DNA from: Aquificaceae bacterium
Lineage (GTDB): Bacteria > Aquificota > Aquificia > Aquificales > Aquificaceae
DNA length: 64,000 bases
Assembly: GCA_026981975.1 (NCBI GenBank)
Contig: JALSHV010000010.1
Coordinates: 1 to 64,000 of the forward strand
Direction: 5' to 3'
The notes beneath the pieces are model-generated. The model was given only the letters and a program-made list of their open reading frames with translations, had not been told where the DNA came from and did not search any database. Positions 5,399 to 17,725 of the stretch are shown in pieces; the stretch's first letter is position 1; the number at the start of each line of letters is the position of its first letter. The translations under genes and the position numbers were made by a program.

Positions 5399-6538
5399 AT
5401 GCCCGATGTTCTTATGGGCATAGCTAAAGCGGGATTAAAACAATCTCCTGAACCGGATTTATTGGTTGTCCTTCTTCCTGTTAGAAGTATTGCTTCTTTC
5501 CTTTTCACAGATAATTTTTTTAAATCTGGTTCTGTTATTTACTCAGAAGAGACTTTTAAAAAAAATAGGAATATTAGAGCTTTTGTTGTAAACAGCGGAA
5601 ACGCCAACTGCGGAACTGGCAAAGAAGGAATTAAACACGCTCGCCAGATAGCGGAGAGAACCGCTTTAAAGCTTAAGTTAAAACCGGAGGAAGTGCTTGT
5701 TTTCTCAACGGGAATTATTGGCAAACCTTTGCCAATAGAGAAAGTTCTCATTGCTGTAGACAAAGCCTGTAGTTCCCTTGAACCCCTGGATTTAAAAAAA
5801 GCTTCTCAAGTTATAACAACAACCGATAGTTTTCCTAAGTTTGACTTTATTGAAAAAAGAAAAGTAAAAACCTTCGGTTTTGCTAAGGGAGCAGGCATGA
5901 TAGCACCTTCAATGGCTACAATGCTTGCCTTTGTATTCACAGAAGCTTTTGTAGAATTTGAAAAGTTAAGAGTAATCCATAAAAAAATCAATGAAAAAAC
6001 TTTTAATTCTATTACTGTAGATGGTTGTAAAAGCACCAACGACAGTTTTGCCCTTATATGTATAGGGAATAAAAAAGCTCCCCTTTCTTCTGTAGAAAAG
6101 GATATACTGCAGATAGCGGAAAGCCTTGCTAAGAAAATAGTTGAAGACGGAGAAGGAGCTTCCAGAGTGATAAAGATAACCGTTAAAGGTGCTGATTCTT
6201 CTAAAAAAGCCAAGGAAATAGCCAAAGCGGTTGCGAACTCTTTACTTGTAAAAACAGCTGTTTACGGTAAAGATCCTAACTGGGGAAGGATAGCTGCAGC
6301 AGCAGGAAGCACTACTTTTCCCATAGATCCTTTTAAACTGGAAATACGTATAGGAGAATATACCCTATATGAAGGGAAACCTCTTCCTTTTTCAGAAGAA
6401 TCTGTAAGAAGATACCTTCAGGAAGAAAAAGAAGTGGAGATTATACTAGATTTAAAAGAAGGAAAAAACGACTGGACTTACTACTCCTCTGACTTAGGTT
6501 ATGAATATGTCAAAATCAATGCGGAGTATAGCACGTGA
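5399..6538 (+). CDS. argJ: Glutamate N-acetyltransferase / ornithine acetyltransferase
   Basis: ArgJ moves the acetyl group from N-acetylornithine to glutamate in the cyclic arginine pathway; some versions also use acetyl-CoA. The self-cleavage site is visible as APSMATML with the nucleophilic Thr at 174, preceded by KGAGMI. The expected [10 protein letters not shown] (65-74) and CKSTNDSF stretches are present. Length (379) is a little short of the usual ~400, with a compact N-terminus. In the cell the precursor cleaves itself into alpha and beta chains at T174. It starts 6 nt after the OmpA-like gene and is followed directly by the stomatin gene. Whether it is mono- or bifunctional cannot be told from sequence. 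Confidence 0.95.
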
Positions 6539-7943: not shown

Positions 7944-8421
7944 AGTTCTAGAGTTAGCAAAGAAAATAGAGAAGGATTTTAAAGAATCACCGAACTTTTT
8001 GATAATAGGACTCCTTAAAGGTGGTTTTGTTTTTACTGCCGATCTTGTAAGGAATATAAACCTTCCCCTACAAGTGGATTTTCTCTGGGTTTCCAGCTAC
8101 GGACTGTCAATGGAAAGCTCTGGCAGTATTAAAATTTTAAAAGATATTGATACAGATATAACAAACAGAGATGTTCTTATAGTTGATGATATTTTAGATA
8201 CTGGAATAACATTAAGATGTATATACGAATTCCTTAAAATGAAAAATCCTTCAAAGTTGAAAACTTGTGTGCTTTTAGATAAAAAAGGACGTAGGAAAGT
8301 TGATTTCAAAGCAGATTATGTAGGTTTTGAAGTTCCAGACAAATTCTTGGTGGGATACGGCTTAGACTGGGGAGAACTGGGAAGAAATCTACCAGAAATT
8401 TACGCCGTAGAAAATCAGTAA
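7882..8421 (+). CDS. hpt: Hypoxanthine phosphoribosyltransferase
   Basis: A type I phosphoribosyltransferase of purine salvage (hypoxanthine/guanine + PRPP to IMP/GMP). The PRPP loop reads VLIVDDILDTGITL, and LLKGGFVFTADL plus WVSSYG match the HPRT core. The GTG start at 7882 overlaps rimI by 62 nt; the family's N-terminus needs the segment encoded there (LLLRKEEINRRVLELA), so the overlap seems real. Its stop overlaps the convergent FIST-GGDEF gene by 7 nt. Confidence 0.88.
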   Translation: MKDIRGRKLTLLLRKEEINRRVLELAKKIEKDFKESPNFLIIGLLKGGFVFTADLVRNINLPLQVDFLWVSSYGLSMESSGSIKILKDIDTDITNRDVLIVDDILDTGITLRCIYEFLKMKNPSKLKTCVLLDKKGRRKVDFKADYVGFEVPDKFLVGYGLDWGELGRNLPEIYAVENQ

Positions 8422-10130
8422 GACATCACTGTATCCTTTCCTCTTTGCTTTGCAAAATACATAGCCATATCAGCTCTTCTGATTATAGAATTTACTGTAT
8501 CTCCTTCCCTGAAAGAGGTTACACCTATACTTAGGCTAATCCTTTCATCGTATTTATCCTGAAAATGATCCCTTATCGCATTTTTTATCTTCTGTCCTAC
8601 AAACATTCCTTCTGTAAGATTCGTCTCTCTCATCAAAACTATAAACTCTTCACCTCCCCATCTTGCAAGTGCGTCGGCTTCTCTAAGTTCACGTTGTAAC
8701 AGATGAGCTATTTCTTTAAGAACTTCGTCTCCTGTTTGATGTCCATACATATCGTTTATGCTTTTAAAGTTATCAACGTCTGCTAAAATAAGAGAAAAGG
8801 GTCTTGCGTATCTCTCCGCTCTTGATATCTCTTCTTCTAAGAGTTCTACTATTTTACGTCTATTATACAAGCCAGTAAGGGGATCCCTTTCCGCAAGCTG
8901 TTTAAGTTCCCTATTAGCTCTTACAAGTTCTTGTGTTATTGAGTTTACTAAGGAAACTAAAGCACGAAAACGTATAGGTTCTCTGTTCTTTTCTTCACCC
9001 AATTCTTCTGTTAGGACAGCTCTACTTTCCCTATTCTCTGAAAGGGAAACAGCTGTTAGAGTGTAATTAAGAAAACCGTTTTTGTTTCCAAAGTTGTAGA
9101 ATTCTCCGTAAGTTAAAAATCCGCTGGTAGGAGCTATATTTTGTAGATGCTTTGTTTCCACTTCCACTTCCCTACCCATTAAATACTTCCTAGCCGCACA
9201 GGTATAGACAAAAATGGTTTCTGAAGGAGAACTGCGAAATTTCTTTAAAGCTTGAGCTGTGGATTCTAACATTATGCCTGTATCCCATATACTGAATCTC
9301 ACCTTCTCACCGGGTTTAAAAGCTCCTTCGTAAATCATTGCTCCGTCCTTATCTATACCAAGGCAGGCACGTGCTATGAGAATACCGTCTCTTTCAAAAA
9401 CTAAGGGGAATTCTATGGCTATATGAGGTAAAAGCTCCTGCGCAGCACTTCCCAAGTATTCCTTATAGATTTCAACAGCGGATTTTCCTTCAATTTCATA
9501 AAGCCTATTTCCTTCCGCGCGTGTTACTTTCATTTCTTTACCTATAGGAATCCACGCTAAGTTGTAGTGTTTTGTTATATAAAGTTCCTTAGAAAGAATA
9601 GCTACCCCTACACCTCCGTGGGGTAATATTTCATCGGTTGTAAAAGTAAAAGTGCCTTTAAAGGAAAAACCGTCCCCCGCAAGTCCTCCTACCAGTGGAA
9701 CGTTCGGACATATACGGTTAAAAGCGGAGACAATGTCATCACCGTTGGAATTAAGACCATCTGCAAATACGATCGTTAACTTAGATTCTCTTTCGGAAAG
9801 TGTTTGTGCTAACTTTTCTGCCATTAGAGCGGAAGTTTTTTCTTCCGATAAGGCAAGCTTTACCCTACTTCTCTCAAAAACAGAAACTGATATTACCGTA
9901 GAACCTTCAAATACGTTACCGTTGTAAATCTCTCCTCCCGTAGTTGTTCCTATGAGAACTGCTTTACTAAAACACCTTTTAACTTCTTTTTGAACTTCTC
10001 TTATATGATTTGTATCCGTTATTCCCGTGAATACTTGAATAAGAATATTTTCAGAATCTTCTATTTCTTTTGTTTCTACTAATCTTTCAAAGTCCCCTGC
10101 TTGTCTGTAAAACAAATTATAGGTTCTCAC
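8415..10130 (-). CDS. FIST-domain diguanylate cyclase
   Basis: A 571-residue soluble signalling protein. Residues 1-~370 hold FIST N and FIST C sensory domains (LIGTTTGGEIYNGNV, LVGGLAGDG, FPLVFERDG, CAARKYLMG), predicted to bind small ligands such as amino acids. A short helix leads to a GGDEF domain with an intact GGEEF site at 492-496 and an RxxD inhibitory site at 483-486 five residues before it. It should therefore make cyclic-di-GMP and be feedback-inhibited. It is the last gene behind the HTH regulator and the rod gene (20 nt gap), tying it to motility control. The start is GTG without a clear ribosome site. Confidence 0.92.
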   Translation of the reverse strand: MRTYNLFYRQAGDFERLVETKEIEDSENILIQVFTGITDTNHIREVQKEVKRCFSKAVLIGTTTGGEIYNGNVFEGSTVISVSVFERSRVKLALSEEKTSALMAEKLAQTLSERESKLTIVFADGLNSNGDDIVSAFNRICPNVPLVGGLAGDGFSFKGTFTFTTDEILPHGGVGVAILSKELYITKHYNLAWIPIGKEMKVTRAEGNRLYEIEGKSAVEIYKEYLGSAAQELLPHIAIEFPLVFERDGILIARACLGIDKDGAMIYEGAFKPGEKVRFSIWDTGIMLESTAQALKKFRSSPSETIFVYTCAARKYLMGREVEVETKHLQNIAPTSGFLTYGEFYNFGNKNGFLNYTLTAVSLSENRESRAVLTEELGEEKNREPIRFRALVSLVNSITQELVRANRELKQLAERDPLTGLYNRRKIVELLEEEISRAERYARPFSLILADVDNFKSINDMYGHQTGDEVLKEIAHLLQRELREADALARWGGEEFIVLMRETNLTEGMFVGQKIKNAIRDHFQDKYDERISLSIGVTSFREGDTVNSIIRRADMAMYFAKQRGKDTVMSY

Positions 10131-11578: not shown

Positions 11579-13570
11579 ATGGGAACTTACGGTATTACAG
11601 AAGAAAACCTCAAACTAAGAAGAGAATTCATGAAATTAACAAATGAGGAAATTTCCATCTTAGCACAACTCTATCCGTGGGCAAAAAAATACGGACCTAC
11701 CATTGTAAAGAGATTCTACGATATTCAATTTTCCTATCCTCCTACTAAGGAATTCTTAAAAGGTATAGCAGACAGAAAAGGCATATCCATGAAAGAACTC
11801 AGAAAGGCTTTGGAGAAAACCCAGCTTCAGTATTTCTTGGATATATTTGAAGAAGCGAAAAAAGGCGGTAACTTTGGAGTTTCTTATTTTGATAGGAGAT
11901 TGAAAATAGGAAGTGTTCACAATGTTCTTAATTTACCTATGAAATGGTATATCGGAAGTTACGGTATATACACGGAATTAGCTATAAGGTATTTAAAAGA
12001 ATCTTTCAAATTCAGGCCCGGTTTTAGAGAAAGAGCTGTAAATGCTCTATGTAAAGTTTTTATATACGATATGCAAAGTGTATTTGATGCTTTTTTCTTT
12101 GACTTTCTTAAAGACGTTGATGTGGATATTGAAAGCATAGAAATTTCGGATCCTGAAAAAGATTTATCGGACTTTTACGAAGAGCTTAAAAAACTCGTAA
12201 AAAGAAAAATGGAAGAGAGAACAAAGAAACTTGAGAGTGTTATAAGAGATCTATCAGAAGCCATGGCTAAGCTTAGTGAAGGAGACTTAACTGTAAGAGT
12301 TGAAGAGAATGAAGGAGAGTATGAAAAGCTTTATAAAAACTTCAACAGTATGGTGGTAAAACTTAGAGGAATTCTTGACAGAACCTATACAAGCTCCAGT
12401 GATCTAACCGATAAAGCTATAGATTTAACAGATATAGCCTACGGCATGGAAAGAAACATAAAAAGCTTGTATGAGCATATCAACTCAATATCCACCTCTT
12501 CAGAAGAATTTTCTATGATAGTAAAGCAAAATGCGGAGAATATAGTTGAAGCGAAAAACCTTGTGGAGACTATGTATTCTACTTTTACGGAAAGCCATAG
12601 AACTCTTGAAGAACTTATAAATAAAATGAAAGATATTTACAGCTCTGTTCAAACCTATTCTGAGGTTATAAAAAAACTCAGTCGTTCCGTTGATCGCATA
12701 GGTGAAATAACAGGAACAATAAACTCCATAGCGGAGCAAACAAGTCTCCTTTCTCTTAACGCAGCTATAGAAGCTGCCAGAGCGGGTGAAGCAGGAAGAG
12801 GGTTTGCTGTTGTAGCAGATGAAGTCAGGAAACTTGCAGAAAGAACTTCTGAATCCGCAAAGGATATTATAGAAATAATAGAAGGTATAGACGAATCTAC
12901 CTCAAGAGCGGTGGAATTAGTCTACAAGATTCTGGAAGCGGTGGAAAAAGGAATGGAAGTTTCCGATAAAGCAAGTGAAGCCATATCAGCACTTGCGGAT
13001 AAAATGAAAGCTGTAGAAGAGAGAATATCCGCCCTAACCGCCGCAGGAGAAGAGGAGTCTAGCACCGCTAATCAGTTAGCTCAATCTGTATTTGAGGTAA
13101 ATTCCTTAGCCGATGAAGACAAGCAAAGGGCGCAAGAACTCAGAAAAATAGCAGGAGAGACTATGGAAAAACTCAAATTAATGCTTGAGGACCTTCAAAG
13201 GTTTAAACTTGACATTTTCAGTATAGAGAAGGCTAAAGTGGCTCACAATATGTGGAAGCTAAGGCTGATAAAGTTTTTAGAAGGGGAGCAGGATATAGAT
13301 CCTACCGAATTTGTAGATCATACCCAATGTTACCTGGGCAAATGGTATTACTCAGTAGGTAGAGAACACTGTGGACACCTGCAGAGCTTTAGAGAAATAG
13401 AATCTCCTCATATAGAACTTCACAGACTCGCAAGGGAAATATACGAACTCAAAAAAGAGGGAAACGCAGAAGAAGCCAAGGAAAAACTCCTGAGAATGAA
13501 AGATTTAGCAAGAATAATAGTTTATAACTTAGACAAACTAAAGATTGAATGTTCCCGTTCCGATAATTAA
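11579..13570 (+). CDS. Globin-coupled soluble chemoreceptor with C-terminal CZB zinc domain
   Basis: A 663-residue cytoplasmic receptor with no membrane segment. Residues 1-~180 are a protoglobin/HemAT-type haem domain: proximal His is H114 in [20 protein letters not shown]-like linker ([10 protein letters not shown]) and a long methyl-accepting coiled coil follow, with the signalling tip [38 protein letters not shown] written in pieces around residues 385-425. The C-terminus is a CZB domain with H556, C584, H611 and H615 at the spacing of known zinc ligands. It should sense oxygen (haem) plus zinc or oxidants (CZB) and signal to CheA. A strong GGGAGGTG precedes the ATG; CCGATA at 11531 faintly resembles a sigma28 -10. 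Confidence 0.93.
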
Positions 13571-13586
13571 ATAAGGGAGGATCATA

Positions 13587-13868
13587 ATGGCTAAGGAAAA
13601 GATAGCAGAATGTAGCAAGTATATGGAAGAGCTTGCCAAATTAACAGAAAGTCTTATGAAAATAGCTAAGCAATCAAATCTCCTTGCTCTGAATGCTGCC
13701 ATAGAAGCGGCAAGAGTGGGTGAATCGGGAAAAGGTTTTGCGGTTGTGGCTTCCGAATTCAGAAAGTTGGCAGACAACACTTCTAAACTGTCTAAGGAAA
13801 TTAAAAATATAGTAGAACAGTTATCAGAAACATTAAAAACGGAGGAAGAAGATGAATCCTCAGGATAA
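13587..13868 (+). CDS. Orphan mini chemoreceptor: signalling-tip hairpin only
   Basis: A 93-residue protein that consists only of the chemoreceptor hairpin tip: [18 protein letters not shown], then [19 protein letters not shown], with short helices either side and an acidic tail. There is no sensor, HAMP or membrane segment. It is a real gene: AGGGAGGA sits 6 nt before ATG, it follows the globin receptor by 16 nt, and its end overlaps cheV by 17 nt, implying translational coupling. The tip is the part that binds CheA and CheW. It could compete with or organise receptor arrays; a decaying receptor remnant is the alternative, but the intact frame and ribosome site argue against it. Confidence 0.85.
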
Positions 13869-14814
13869 AAGCGGAGCATTACCGGATATATTAGAGACTG
13901 GGAAAAACGAACTTGAAATAGTGGACTTTCGCATATACGAAGACAACACTGAAGACACCTACGAGTGGATTTTCGGTGTTAACGTAGCAAAAGTAAGAGA
14001 AGTCCTCAGAATGCCATCTATAACTAAAATACCCAATATGCCTCCCCAAGTAGAGGGAATGGCTGAAATCCGCGGAAAGCTAATCCCTGTTGTAAGCCTT
14101 GCAAAATGGATGGGTATAGAAGAACCTCAAGAGAGAAAGAAGTTTTTACTTCACCTAGAATTCTTAAGGGAGAACGTAGGTATAGTAGTCCACGACGCCA
14201 AAAGAATTAGGAGAATATCATGGAAAGATATTAAAAAAGCACCTGATACTTTAAATGTGAAAATGGGAGGTAGAATAACCGGTGTTGTAGAAACGGAAGA
14301 TGGACTGCTGATAATCCTTGACTTTGAAGGCATACTCCATGACATAGGTCTTTTAAAGATATTCCATGAAGCGGAAGCTTACGAAAAGGCAAAAGAAATA
14401 AAGAAAACCCATACCATTCTCATAGCGGAAGACTCAGCTGTAGCTCGTAAGATAATAAAAGATCTTCTTGAAGCGGCGGGACACAAAGTTATAACCGCTG
14501 AAGATGGCTTACAAGCGTGGAATCTCTTAAACGATTATTTAAAAAAGGCTCAAAGTGAAGGTAAATCTTTAAAGGACTATATCCAGCTGGTTATAACTGA
14601 TATAGAGATGCCCAACATGGACGGACTAACTTTAACAAAGAGGATAAAAGAAACAGTTGGACTCATGGGATTGCCAGTTATAGTAAATACTACGTTAAGT
14701 GATGATTCCAACAGACAAAGAGCTTTTAGAGTGAACGCTGACGGTTTTATTGTTAAATTTGACGCTGAAGAGTTACTTAGCATGGTAACCAAATTAGCAG
14801 AAAAAGGAGAGTAA
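13852..14814 (+). CDS. cheV: Chemotaxis coupling protein CheV
   Basis: A CheW-type coupling domain (residues ~20-170; [20 protein letters not shown]) fused to a response-regulator receiver (185-320). The phosphoacceptor is D250 in [13 protein letters not shown], with acidic pocket residues at IAEDS (192-194) and the late Lys in GFIVKFD. CheV links receptors to CheA and dampens signalling when phosphorylated. It starts inside the mini-receptor gene and cheA starts 4 nt after its stop. Confidence 0.93.
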
Positions 14815-14817
14815 AAG

Positions 14818-16710
14818 ATGATCAACGATGAAATGAAAGAAATATTTAATGAATTTGTTATTGAATCAGAGGAAAATCTCCAAAGGATAGAAGAGAACCT
14901 CCTTCAACTTGAAAAAGATCCCCAGAATGAAGAAATACTCAATGCAACTTTTAGAGCAATGCACACCCTAAAAGGTGGAGCTGGTTTTTTGGGATTACAG
15001 GCAATTGTTGAAACTGCTCATGCGGCAGAAGATGTTTTAGGAAAGTTAAGGAGCAAAGAATTAAAGCTCAGCCCTGAAGTAAACGATCTTATCCTTGAAG
15101 CAGTTGATTTTATAAGAAACGCTCTTCAGAAATACGAAGAAGGAGAAGAAGTAGAAGTTCCGCAGGATCTTGTTGCAAGACTGAGAGAATTAGAAAGAAG
15201 TGCAAAACCTTCAGAAACATCACAACCTCCTACCATAGATGAACTCCTTGACAAATACGGATTTTCCCATCTTAAAGGAAAACCTCTTGAAGAAATCCTA
15301 GAGGAACTTATTTTACTTCCGCCAGATGAAAGACCAGCCGAACTTATAGATCAACTTGATAAGATAGTCGCCGCTTCAGAATCAACTTCTAAAGAAGAAA
15401 AAGAATCACAACCACCTCCTAAGGTGGAAGAAAAAGCCATAGAAAAAGCAAAGGAAACTCAAGAAGAAAGCCAAGAACAAGAAAGGGAAGAAAAAAAGCC
15501 ACCCAAACTTTCTACCCAACAAGAAGGAGAAAAAGTCCTGCGCATAGATGTAAAAAAGATAGAAGATCTCATGAATTTAGTGGGTGAATTAGTCCTTGAA
15601 AGAAATAGGCTTCTGAGGGTATTTCAAAAACTGTATGAGGAATATCAGTCCAAAACCATAGATGAGTTTGAAACCGTTATGTCTTCTCTTGATCGTATAG
15701 TTGGAGATCTACAACTGGCGGTAATGAAAACAAGAATGCAACCTGTTAAAAGACTTTTCCAAAAGTTTCCCCGCGTAGTAAGAGACTTGGCACGTATGTT
15801 AGGCAAAGAAGTAGATCTTGTTCTTGAAGGAGAAGATGCAGAAATGGATAAAACTGTTCTTGAAAAACTGGAAGAACCTTTGATCCACCTTATAAGAAAC
15901 GCTGTTGATCACGGCATAGAATTTCCAGAAGAGAGAACAAAAATGGGTAAACCCCCGAAAGGAACTGTAAAACTAAGTGCTTACTATCACGGAGATAGGA
16001 TATTCATAGAAGTCTCCGATGATGGTAGAGGAATTGATGTGGAAAAAGTTAAGAAAAAAGCTCTTGAAAGGGGACTTATTACCTCCGATAGAGCTGAAAA
16101 GATGACAGAAAAAGACATTTTATTCCTTATTTTCCACCCAGGATTTTCTACTGCGGAAGGAGTTTCCCAAGTATCTGGAAGAGGAGTGGGAATGGACGTT
16201 GTAATGAACACAGTCTCAGCTTTTAGAGGAACCATAGATATAGAGACAGAAAGAGGGAAAGGAACTAAAATTACTCTATCATTCCCGCTCACAGTAGGAA
16301 TAATAAGATCTCTTCTTGTATCTGTTAACGGTAGGCTTTTTGCTATACCTATTTACTCTGTTTTAGAAATAATTCAAGGAGAAGACGCTCAGATAACAAC
16401 GGTTTCTGGTAAGGAGGTTCTAATTTTAAGGGAACTCACAATCCCTCTTATAAATCTCGGGGAAGCTCTGGAAATGGGTGGAGGAGCTGTAGGATACGTT
16501 ATAGTTTCACAGGTAGGTAGTCAAAAAATAGCCTTTACAGTAGAAGATCTCTTTGGAGATGAAGAAGTAGTAGTCAAACCGCTTGGCAAAATAATAGGAG
16601 AAGTTCAGGGTATATCAGGAGCTACAATAACCGGAGATGGTAAAGTGGTTTTAATCTTAGATTTAGATGGTATTTTGAAAAGAGAAATGAAAACCTTAAC
16701 TCTTGTATGA
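14818..16710 (+). CDS. cheA: Chemotaxis histidine kinase CheA
   Basis: A 630-residue kinase with the domains in order: HPt domain with phospho-His 49 in FRAMHTLKGGAGFLG; a linker with a small helical module (DELLDKYGFSHLKGK) and a long Glu/Lys-rich stretch (about 185-235) where P2 usually sits; dimerisation helices (MNLVGELVLERNRLL); an ATPase with N box HLIRNAVDHGIEFPEER, G1 DDGRGID and G2 GRGVGMDVV; and a C-terminal CheW-like domain. The classic P2 CheY-docking fold is not obvious. No cheY, cheB or cheR lies in the window. Confidence 0.95.
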   Translation: MINDEMKEIFNEFVIESEENLQRIEENLLQLEKDPQNEEILNATFRAMHTLKGGAGFLGLQAIVETAHAAEDVLGKLRSKELKLSPEVNDLILEAVDFIRNALQKYEEGEEVEVPQDLVARLRELERSAKPSETSQPPTIDELLDKYGFSHLKGKPLEEILEELILLPPDERPAELIDQLDKIVAASESTSKEEKESQPPPKVEEKAIEKAKETQEESQEQEREEKKPPKLSTQQEGEKVLRIDVKKIEDLMNLVGELVLERNRLLRVFQKLYEEYQSKTIDEFETVMSSLDRIVGDLQLAVMKTRMQPVKRLFQKFPRVVRDLARMLGKEVDLVLEGEDAEMDKTVLEKLEEPLIHLIRNAVDHGIEFPEERTKMGKPPKGTVKLSAYYHGDRIFIEVSDDGRGIDVEKVKKKALERGLITSDRAEKMTEKDILFLIFHPGFSTAEGVSQVSGRGVGMDVVMNTVSAFRGTIDIETERGKGTKITLSFPLTVGIIRSLLVSVNGRLFAIPIYSVLEIIQGEDAQITTVSGKEVLILRELTIPLINLGEALEMGGGAVGYVIVSQVGSQKIAFTVEDLFGDEEVVVKPLGKIIGEVQGISGATITGDGKVVLILDLDGILKREMKTLTLV

Positions 16711-16720
16711 GGTGAGTATT

Positions 16721-17194
16721 ATGTCAGAGATAGTGCCTGTAGGAGAAACAAAACCAGAAAAGGTAGTAACGGACGTAGAGGAATTCTTAGGAATTTCCTT
16801 AGAAAAAGAACTTATAGGAATATCCCTTAGAAAGATATTAACCATTTCAAAAGTTCTGGATATCGTAAAAGTTCCCTACACTCCTTCCTTTGTAGTAGGT
16901 GTAATAAATTTAAGGGGAGAAATAATTCCCATACTGTCTTTAAAACAGATATTGAATCTTTCAGAAACTCAAGAACCTACACGTATAGTGGTTTTGGATT
17001 CCAGTCACGGAAAAGCGGGTGTTTTGGTAGACAGTATTGTAGGAGTGGTTCGCGTTCCTCAAGAGAAGTTTGAGCCCAATCCCCTGATAGGACGTTACAG
17101 TGTTTACGTAAGTCATGTAGCTCAAACAGAATTCGGATTGATGGAAATCCTTGATGTTGAAAGGATAATGAATTCTGTAGTTTCCAAAGAATAA
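16721..17194 (+). CDS. cheW: Chemotaxis coupling protein CheW
   Basis: A single CheW domain that bridges receptors and CheA (VKVPYTPSFVVGVINLRGEIIPILSL, GVLVDSIVGVVRVP). I choose ATG 16721 because GAGGTG lies 7 nt upstream, starting inside the end of cheA; a TTG at 16703 is the in-frame alternative. It is the last clear chemotaxis gene of the operon and yqhA follows after 21 nt. Confidence 0.92.
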   Translation: MSEIVPVGETKPEKVVTDVEEFLGISLEKELIGISLRKILTISKVLDIVKVPYTPSFVVGVINLRGEIIPILSLKQILNLSETQEPTRIVVLDSSHGKAGVLVDSIVGVVRVPQEKFEPNPLIGRYSVYVSHVAQTEFGLMEILDVERIMNSVVSKE

Positions 17195-17215: not shown

Positions 17216-17725
17216 ATGAAAAAAGTAGAGCTTTTATTTGAAAGCTTCCTTTGGAGATCTAGATTACTTGTTATACTAGCTGTTCTAAGCTCTCTACTGG
17301 GTTCCTTAGCTCTTTTTCTTGCAGGACTTGTAGAAGTTATCACTCCTTTGATTAAATTTTTTAAAACCTTTGATTACGAAATTCTCTCAAAGAAGCTTGT
17401 AGCTTCCGCAATTGCTTCTATTGATATGTTTTTAATAGCAACCTTTTTGCTTATATTCTCCTTAGGACTTTATGAGCTTTTTATATCCAAAATAGACATA
17501 GCTCAAGAAGATCCAAAAAGTTCAAAGGTTCTTTTTATAACAAATTTAGAAGATCTAAAGACAAAACTGGGAAGAGTGGTAATCATGGTTCTCATAGTTA
17601 CCTTCTTTAAAGAAGCTCTGGAAATGGAATACAAAACTCCTCTAGATATTTTATTTCTTTCAGCAGGAGCATTAGGAATTTCTCTTGCACTTTACTTTAC
17701 ACGTAAGGAATACTATGAAAAATAA
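17216..17725 (+). CDS. yqhA: YqhA/UPF0114 family inner-membrane protein
   Basis: A 169-residue membrane protein with about four hydrophobic segments (22-44, 63-85, 120-135, 140-160) and the family's ESFLWRSRLLVILAVLSSLLGS start and ISKIDIAQED loop. Molecular function of the family is not established. It follows cheW by 21 nt and its end overlaps the convergent alcohol dehydrogenase gene by 13 nt. Confidence 0.8.
   Translation: MKKVELLFESFLWRSRLLVILAVLSSLLGSLALFLAGLVEVITPLIKFFKTFDYEILSKKLVASAIASIDMFLIATFLLIFSLGLYELFISKIDIAQEDPKSSKVLFITNLEDLKTKLGRVVIMVLIVTFFKEALEMEYKTPLDILFLSAGALGISLALYFTRKEYYEK

Follow-up and report, generated by a model that had tools for sequence, protein, structure and literature searches.

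Genes and signals at the locus

The window, a stretch of 64,000 nt from a member of the Aquificaceae, carries on its forward strand a chemotaxis operon in which a short gene encoding a stand-alone chemoreceptor tip, referred to here as the mini-receptor, resides between a full-length receptor gene and cheV. The genes and signals are as follows.

11579..13570, forward strand: full-length receptor, 663 aa, with protoglobin, HAMP, MCPsignal and CZB domains, ending 16 nt upstream of the mini-receptor
13576..13580, forward strand: GGAGG, ribosome-binding site of the mini-receptor, 6 nt ahead of its ATG
13587..13868, forward strand: mini-receptor, 93 aa, ATG start, MCP signalling hairpin
13841..13845, forward strand: GGAGG, cheV ribosome site, located within the mini-receptor gene near its 3′ end
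13852..13868, forward strand: 17-nt overlap of the mini-receptor gene and cheV
13852..14814, forward strand: cheV, 320 aa, CheW-like and receiver domains
14818..16710, forward strand: cheA, 630 aa, Hpt, H-kinase_dim, HATPase_c and CheW-like domains
16703..17194, forward strand: cheW, 163 aa

A first-pass annotation of this DNA had described a 93-residue receptor tip standing alone in the che operon, with a ribosome site of its own and coupled to cheV by a 17-nt overlap, and each element of that description is borne out by the reading frame and signals listed above and by the match to the MCP signalling domain. This domain (MCPsignal, PF00015) is the only one that Pfam identifies in the protein, where residues 5-84 align with model positions 24-103 of 172 at 90 bits, against a cut-off of 34.6. 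Its architecture is that of two helical arms of about six heptads each flanking the hairpin, followed by an acidic C-terminal tail that is in part the translated ribosome site of cheV. Among homologues, the two genes overlap by up to 20 nt or lie up to 190 nt apart, mostly within about 16 nt either way. The open reading frame is not a chance one, because a start codon and an upstream Shine-Dalgarno-like motif are present in 35 of 36 homologues, the lone exception coming from a decayed operon. Wherever the locus is intact, the mini-receptor gene points the same way as cheV, and a search for a promoter of its own found none beyond chance.

The tip of the upstream receptor is 49% identical to the mini-receptor. 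The C-terminal CZB domain of this receptor is zinc-binding, and since it is combined with a protoglobin domain in one protein, the receptor may sense a heme ligand as well as zinc or oxidants. Also near the operon, on the reverse strand, is a GGDEF diguanylate cyclase fused to FIST N and FIST C sensor domains (8415-10130), and immediately 3′ to cheW is a UPF0114 membrane protein (17216-17725, forward strand). Many related operons have an unannotated reading frame of about 155-160 aa after cheW, and a cassette of cheY and a short receptor (about 250-310 aa) recurs near operons of the mini-receptor type (L183, 5413-6617; L216, 11217-12546; and similar loci).

Predicted fold and diagnostic residues

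The AlphaFold2 model of the mini-receptor is helical throughout (mean pLDDT 90.9) and superposes on the receptor tips 6s1k, 3g6b, 2ch7 and 1qu7 at TM scores of 0.8-0.9. The sensor, transmembrane and HAMP modules are missing, as there is no further Pfam domain and the predicted helix leaves no room for them. The methylation (adaptation) helices are likewise missing, the match being confined to the central part of the domain model, and intact homologues of 77-121 aa are too short to accommodate them. Heptad periodicity runs through both arms (P≤0.0002) and is compatible with a homodimer, the predictions being of monomers only. At about 12-13 heptads in all, the mini-receptor falls outside the known receptor length classes (24H or longer), of which 24H is, to our knowledge, the shortest.

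Residues were compared in Tsr numbering between 31 mini-receptors and 40 full-length Aquificota tips. All 31 retain the equivalents of N381, E385, R388, V398, E402 and R404, with lysine at R394, and the first four of these positions are trimer contacts. Simulations of the E. coli core unit single out three residues as strong CheW contacts, namely E402, R404 and R394 (PMC6954272).

Other positions set the mini-receptors apart. The substitutions A389V and V403F each occur in 31/31 mini-receptors and 0/40 full-length tips. At position 401 the D/E of full receptors is replaced by S, G, T or A, at 373 E/D is replaced by K, and at 370 a residue that is mostly E, S or D is replaced by K or R, in every mini-receptor in all three cases; at 413, mostly S or A in full receptors, 28 of the 31 have L or I. 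From the heptad register, positions 389, 403 and 413, at which the mini-receptors have bulkier residues, probably lie in the core and 370, 373 and 401 on the surface, and the mean net charge of the 74-column region shifts from -1.9 in full receptors to +0.9 in mini-receptors. We read these changes as a core repacked for a hairpin that is stable alone, combined with an altered outer face. Tar A411V, at the 413 position, is presumably a kinase-activating change.

Distribution among Aquificota

Among 136 Aquificota genomes, 36 carry a stand-alone tip beside cheV, and these belong to genera of the Aquificaceae (family f1) and to three genera of a second family of the order Aquificales (f3). The first-pass annotation had proposed looking for conserved mini-receptors next to cheV in the Aquificaceae; they are there, and in f3 as well, directly upstream of cheV in all 36 operons with one of two cheV types (type A; 34 strong matches, G052 and the broken locus of G092). 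In G016 the contig begins inside the mini-receptor gene, the end of which overlaps cheV as usual. The 44 Aquificota genomes with the other cheV type (type B), which have a different operon order, lack the mini-receptor without exception. Types A and B of CheV were also compared for changes that might compensate for the mini-receptor; they differ at several clade-specific positions, which are indistinguishable from plain lineage divergence.

Loss or breakage of the mini-receptor is confined to genomes whose che operon has itself broken down or disappeared. In G092, cheA, cheV and the mini-receptor are all disrupted, and in G110 the mini-receptor is cut after 58 residues and cheA and cheV were not found. 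G051, a close relative of mini-receptor carriers, is without cheA, cheV and the mini-receptor and has broken cheR and cheB; four genomes with fragmented assemblies (G005, G006, G010 and G012) are without cheV and the mini-receptor.

To look beyond the phylum, the GTDB species collection was scanned with patterns biased toward the mini-receptor clade; among the best 80 loci listed, the only stand-alone tips were four from Aquificales. No stand-alone tip neighbors cheV at 25 cheV loci of other phyla, and 25, 398 and 398 genomes from three other phyla (about 820) yielded no tip resembling the clade, in a search that independently evolved tips could escape. A Kiloniellaceae contig (L144) has, near position 6001, a 197-residue open frame with a short receptor signalling domain.

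Origin and selection

In trees built on 74 tip columns, all mini-receptors fall on one side of a single branch (support 99/93 and 100/99), which indicates that they form one clade of a single origin. With only 74 columns, the trees cannot pick the parent receptor: descent from the protoglobin receptor (p-AU 0.34) and from a receptor that directly precedes cheV in family f5 (p-AU 0.29) are each neither supported nor rejected. This f5 receptor is a full-length protein of about 623-638 aa encoded between cheW and cheV (L200-L202, L206-L209, L212 and L213), and its tip has the best score to the mini-receptor profile among full receptors. A phage or prophage source was considered and set aside; none of the phage matches reaches 60% identity, and the annotated ones fall in receptor genes.

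Within the genus, dN/dS is about 0.035 for the mini-receptor, 0.037 for cheV and 0.046 for the tip of the upstream receptor, values that are approximate because synonymous sites are near saturation. The dN/dS of the gene, a check that the first-pass annotation had suggested, is thus very low, and by this measure the mini-receptor is under strong purifying selection, the same as cheV. Across 19 orthologues, 30 columns are invariant.

These data bear on the idea that the mini-receptor is a dead or decaying duplicate of the receptor that precedes it, which absence or frameshifts in close relatives would have indicated. The gene does lie right behind a receptor gene with the same domain, and the tip tree is compatible with an origin in the protoglobin receptor lineage. 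Yet the gene is intact wherever an assembly holds an intact operon. Of the marks of a degenerate fragment, relaxed selection is not seen, and frameshifts or missing start signals are limited to G092 and G110, whose operons have decayed or been lost. The low dN/dS, the presence of a single clade in two families whatever gene lies upstream, the intact starts and ribosome sites, and the finding that the upstream tip and the mini-receptor have no common DNA repeat all argue against decay, as do G023 and G079, in which the operon begins with the mini-receptor and no receptor gene precedes it. Decay is rejected on these grounds and is hardly credible as an account of the gene, although its remote ancestor was undoubtedly some full receptor.

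Possible functions of the mini-receptor

The first-pass annotation had offered three roles: competitor, array filler and activator that works without a ligand domain. Comparative data support the element common to them, a component of the array that would bind CheW and CheV, and sequence alone separates none of the three, although a filler or activator is favored over a competitor. The reading preferred here, to which we give about an even chance, is that the mini-receptor is a dedicated receptor tip, soluble and blind to ligand, with both a structural and a tuning part in the chemotaxis array. It would form dimers, bind CheV, CheW and CheA, and enter mixed trimers, thereby occupying receptor positions with a tip that neither ligand nor methylation can switch; in so doing it would seat CheV and fix part of the basal CheA activity, either as a kinase-on element or as a neutral filler. 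The pairing with type-A cheV (36/36, against 0/44 for other cheV genomes) supports this assignment, as do the purifying selection, the invariant columns, the retained CheW and trimer contacts, the heptad pattern, the clade-specific substitutions and the loss of the gene together with its operon. In length the protein is sufficient for docking, since the receptors crystallized with CheA P4-P5 and CheW (3ur1, 4jpb) are artificial tips of 85-90 residues. Binding of CheV to the mini-receptor may depend on phosphorylation, because P. aeruginosa CheV has to be in phosphomimetic form to bind some receptors (PMC12691637).

Against an array component stands mainly the length-matching rule of receptors: as cited in PMC7534058, E. 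coli receptors that differ in length by one heptad sort into separate arrays. This rule may not hold for an unanchored tip, because it concerns membrane-anchored receptors. Trimer-contact residues face CheW as well (PMC4692393), and their conservation in mini-receptors may come from this alone. In addition, the 44 Aquificota genomes with type-B cheV get by without the mini-receptor.

Conceivably, the free tip could instead act as an inhibitor. It would fill the grooves through which CheW, CheV and CheA P5 bind receptors, fail to activate the kinase, and so reduce the occupancy of the array or the gain of its signal. Such a competitor would need just what is kept, the full set of CheW-contact residues, and could dispense with the stalk, HAMP, sensor and methylation helices that are gone; moreover, the charge swaps at 370 and 373 could weaken trimers of mini-receptors with one another. 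It would not need a conserved trimer face, however, and yet N381, E385, R388 and V398 never vary. That the gene is always paired with cheV, at the dosage of the operon, suits a partner better than an inhibitor, which would need regulated levels, and no separate regulation is seen in a gene that runs with cheV and has no evident promoter. On balance, competition is rather unlikely. The invariant gene order, the overlap or close spacing of the two genes and the location of the cheV ribosome site within the mini-receptor gene would also fit an assembly partner, which binds nascent CheV as a stand-in tip, keeps it soluble or binding-ready at high temperature and delivers it to the array without becoming a lasting member. 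Nothing in the sequence sets this role apart from ordinary array binding, though, and other thermophilic Aquificota, those with type-B cheV, do without the mini-receptor, so that such a role seems improbable. Tls, a chemoreceptor-like E. coli protein that sequesters FlhDC (PMC12623472), provides a precedent for a protein that has left chemotaxis to act on another partner, but linkage to cheV and cheA in every case and conservation of the CheW contacts make this very improbable for the mini-receptor.

A more specific form of the array-component reading is possible, and is put forward tentatively. The mini-receptor may have evolved into an obligate CheV partner. Blind to ligand, proof against methylation and stabilized in its core, the tip would insert in arrays and set basal kinase activity, and it would be kept even where CheR and CheB are undetectable, so that the pair would be the main array tuning that remains. 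Seven near-complete genomes (G024, G030, G036, G038, G040, G059 and G107; L177, L179 and L185-L189) have the mini-receptor, cheV and cheA, and a search of the same genomes for CheR (PF01739) and CheB (PF01339) returned no match; in G107, a stop separates the Hpt part of cheA from its kinase core. The mini-receptor-cheV pair therefore persists without detectable receptor methylation, and chemotaxis in these genomes is probably methylation-independent. Retention of the three genes in this setting points to methylation-independent adaptation.

Comparison with known systems

The mini-receptor appears, from its sequence, to be a new short form of a known receptor family, and the evidence that it matters to the cell is strong. 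The open-access literature, to which the search was limited, yielded no account of a tip-only chemoreceptor in nature or of the Aquificales gene, and this silence is weak evidence of novelty.

The signalling domain of full-length receptors (PF00015; E. coli Tsr and Tar, T. maritima TM1143) has the same hairpin tip, the same CheW- and trimer-contact residues and the same predicted fold. Unlike these receptors, the mini-receptor is without sensor, membrane segments, HAMP and adaptation helices and differs at its clade-specific positions (Tsr 370, 373, 389, 401, 403 and 413). T. maritima Tm14 and B. subtilis YfmS are short soluble natural receptors. Both have the same tip and no large sensor domain, but they keep a long signalling bundle and are two to three times the length of the mini-receptor (3g67, 213 residues, and the 9a72 model, 286 residues, respectively). 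Enterobacterial McpC/COG2 receptors co-occur with CheV, sometimes in adjacent genes (PMC4742279), although they are full-length and their signature lies at Tar 278 and 406 rather than at the positions that mark the mini-receptors. The 278 region is absent from mini-receptors, and the 406 equivalent is D or E in them and mostly E in full receptors. Tls, from E. coli B2 strains, resembles the mini-receptor in being chemoreceptor-like, and does not itself mediate chemotactic signalling (PMC12623472); it differs in being Trg-like, neither tip-only nor paired with cheV.

In extent, the mini-receptor is close to the tips in 3ur1 (85 residues) and 4jpb (90 residues), which cover nearly the same part of the hairpin and align with it almost end to end. 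Those tips are laboratory truncations of T. maritima receptors, whereas the mini-receptor is naturally encoded. It is thus a natural counterpart, of the same size, of the artificial 85-90-residue tips used in structural work on arrays; it comes from a lineage of thermophiles, and 36 genomes carry orthologues. As such, it makes it possible to ask directly if a tip by itself activates, inhibits or just scaffolds CheA, and it offers a defined partner for CheV, the role of which is still debated.
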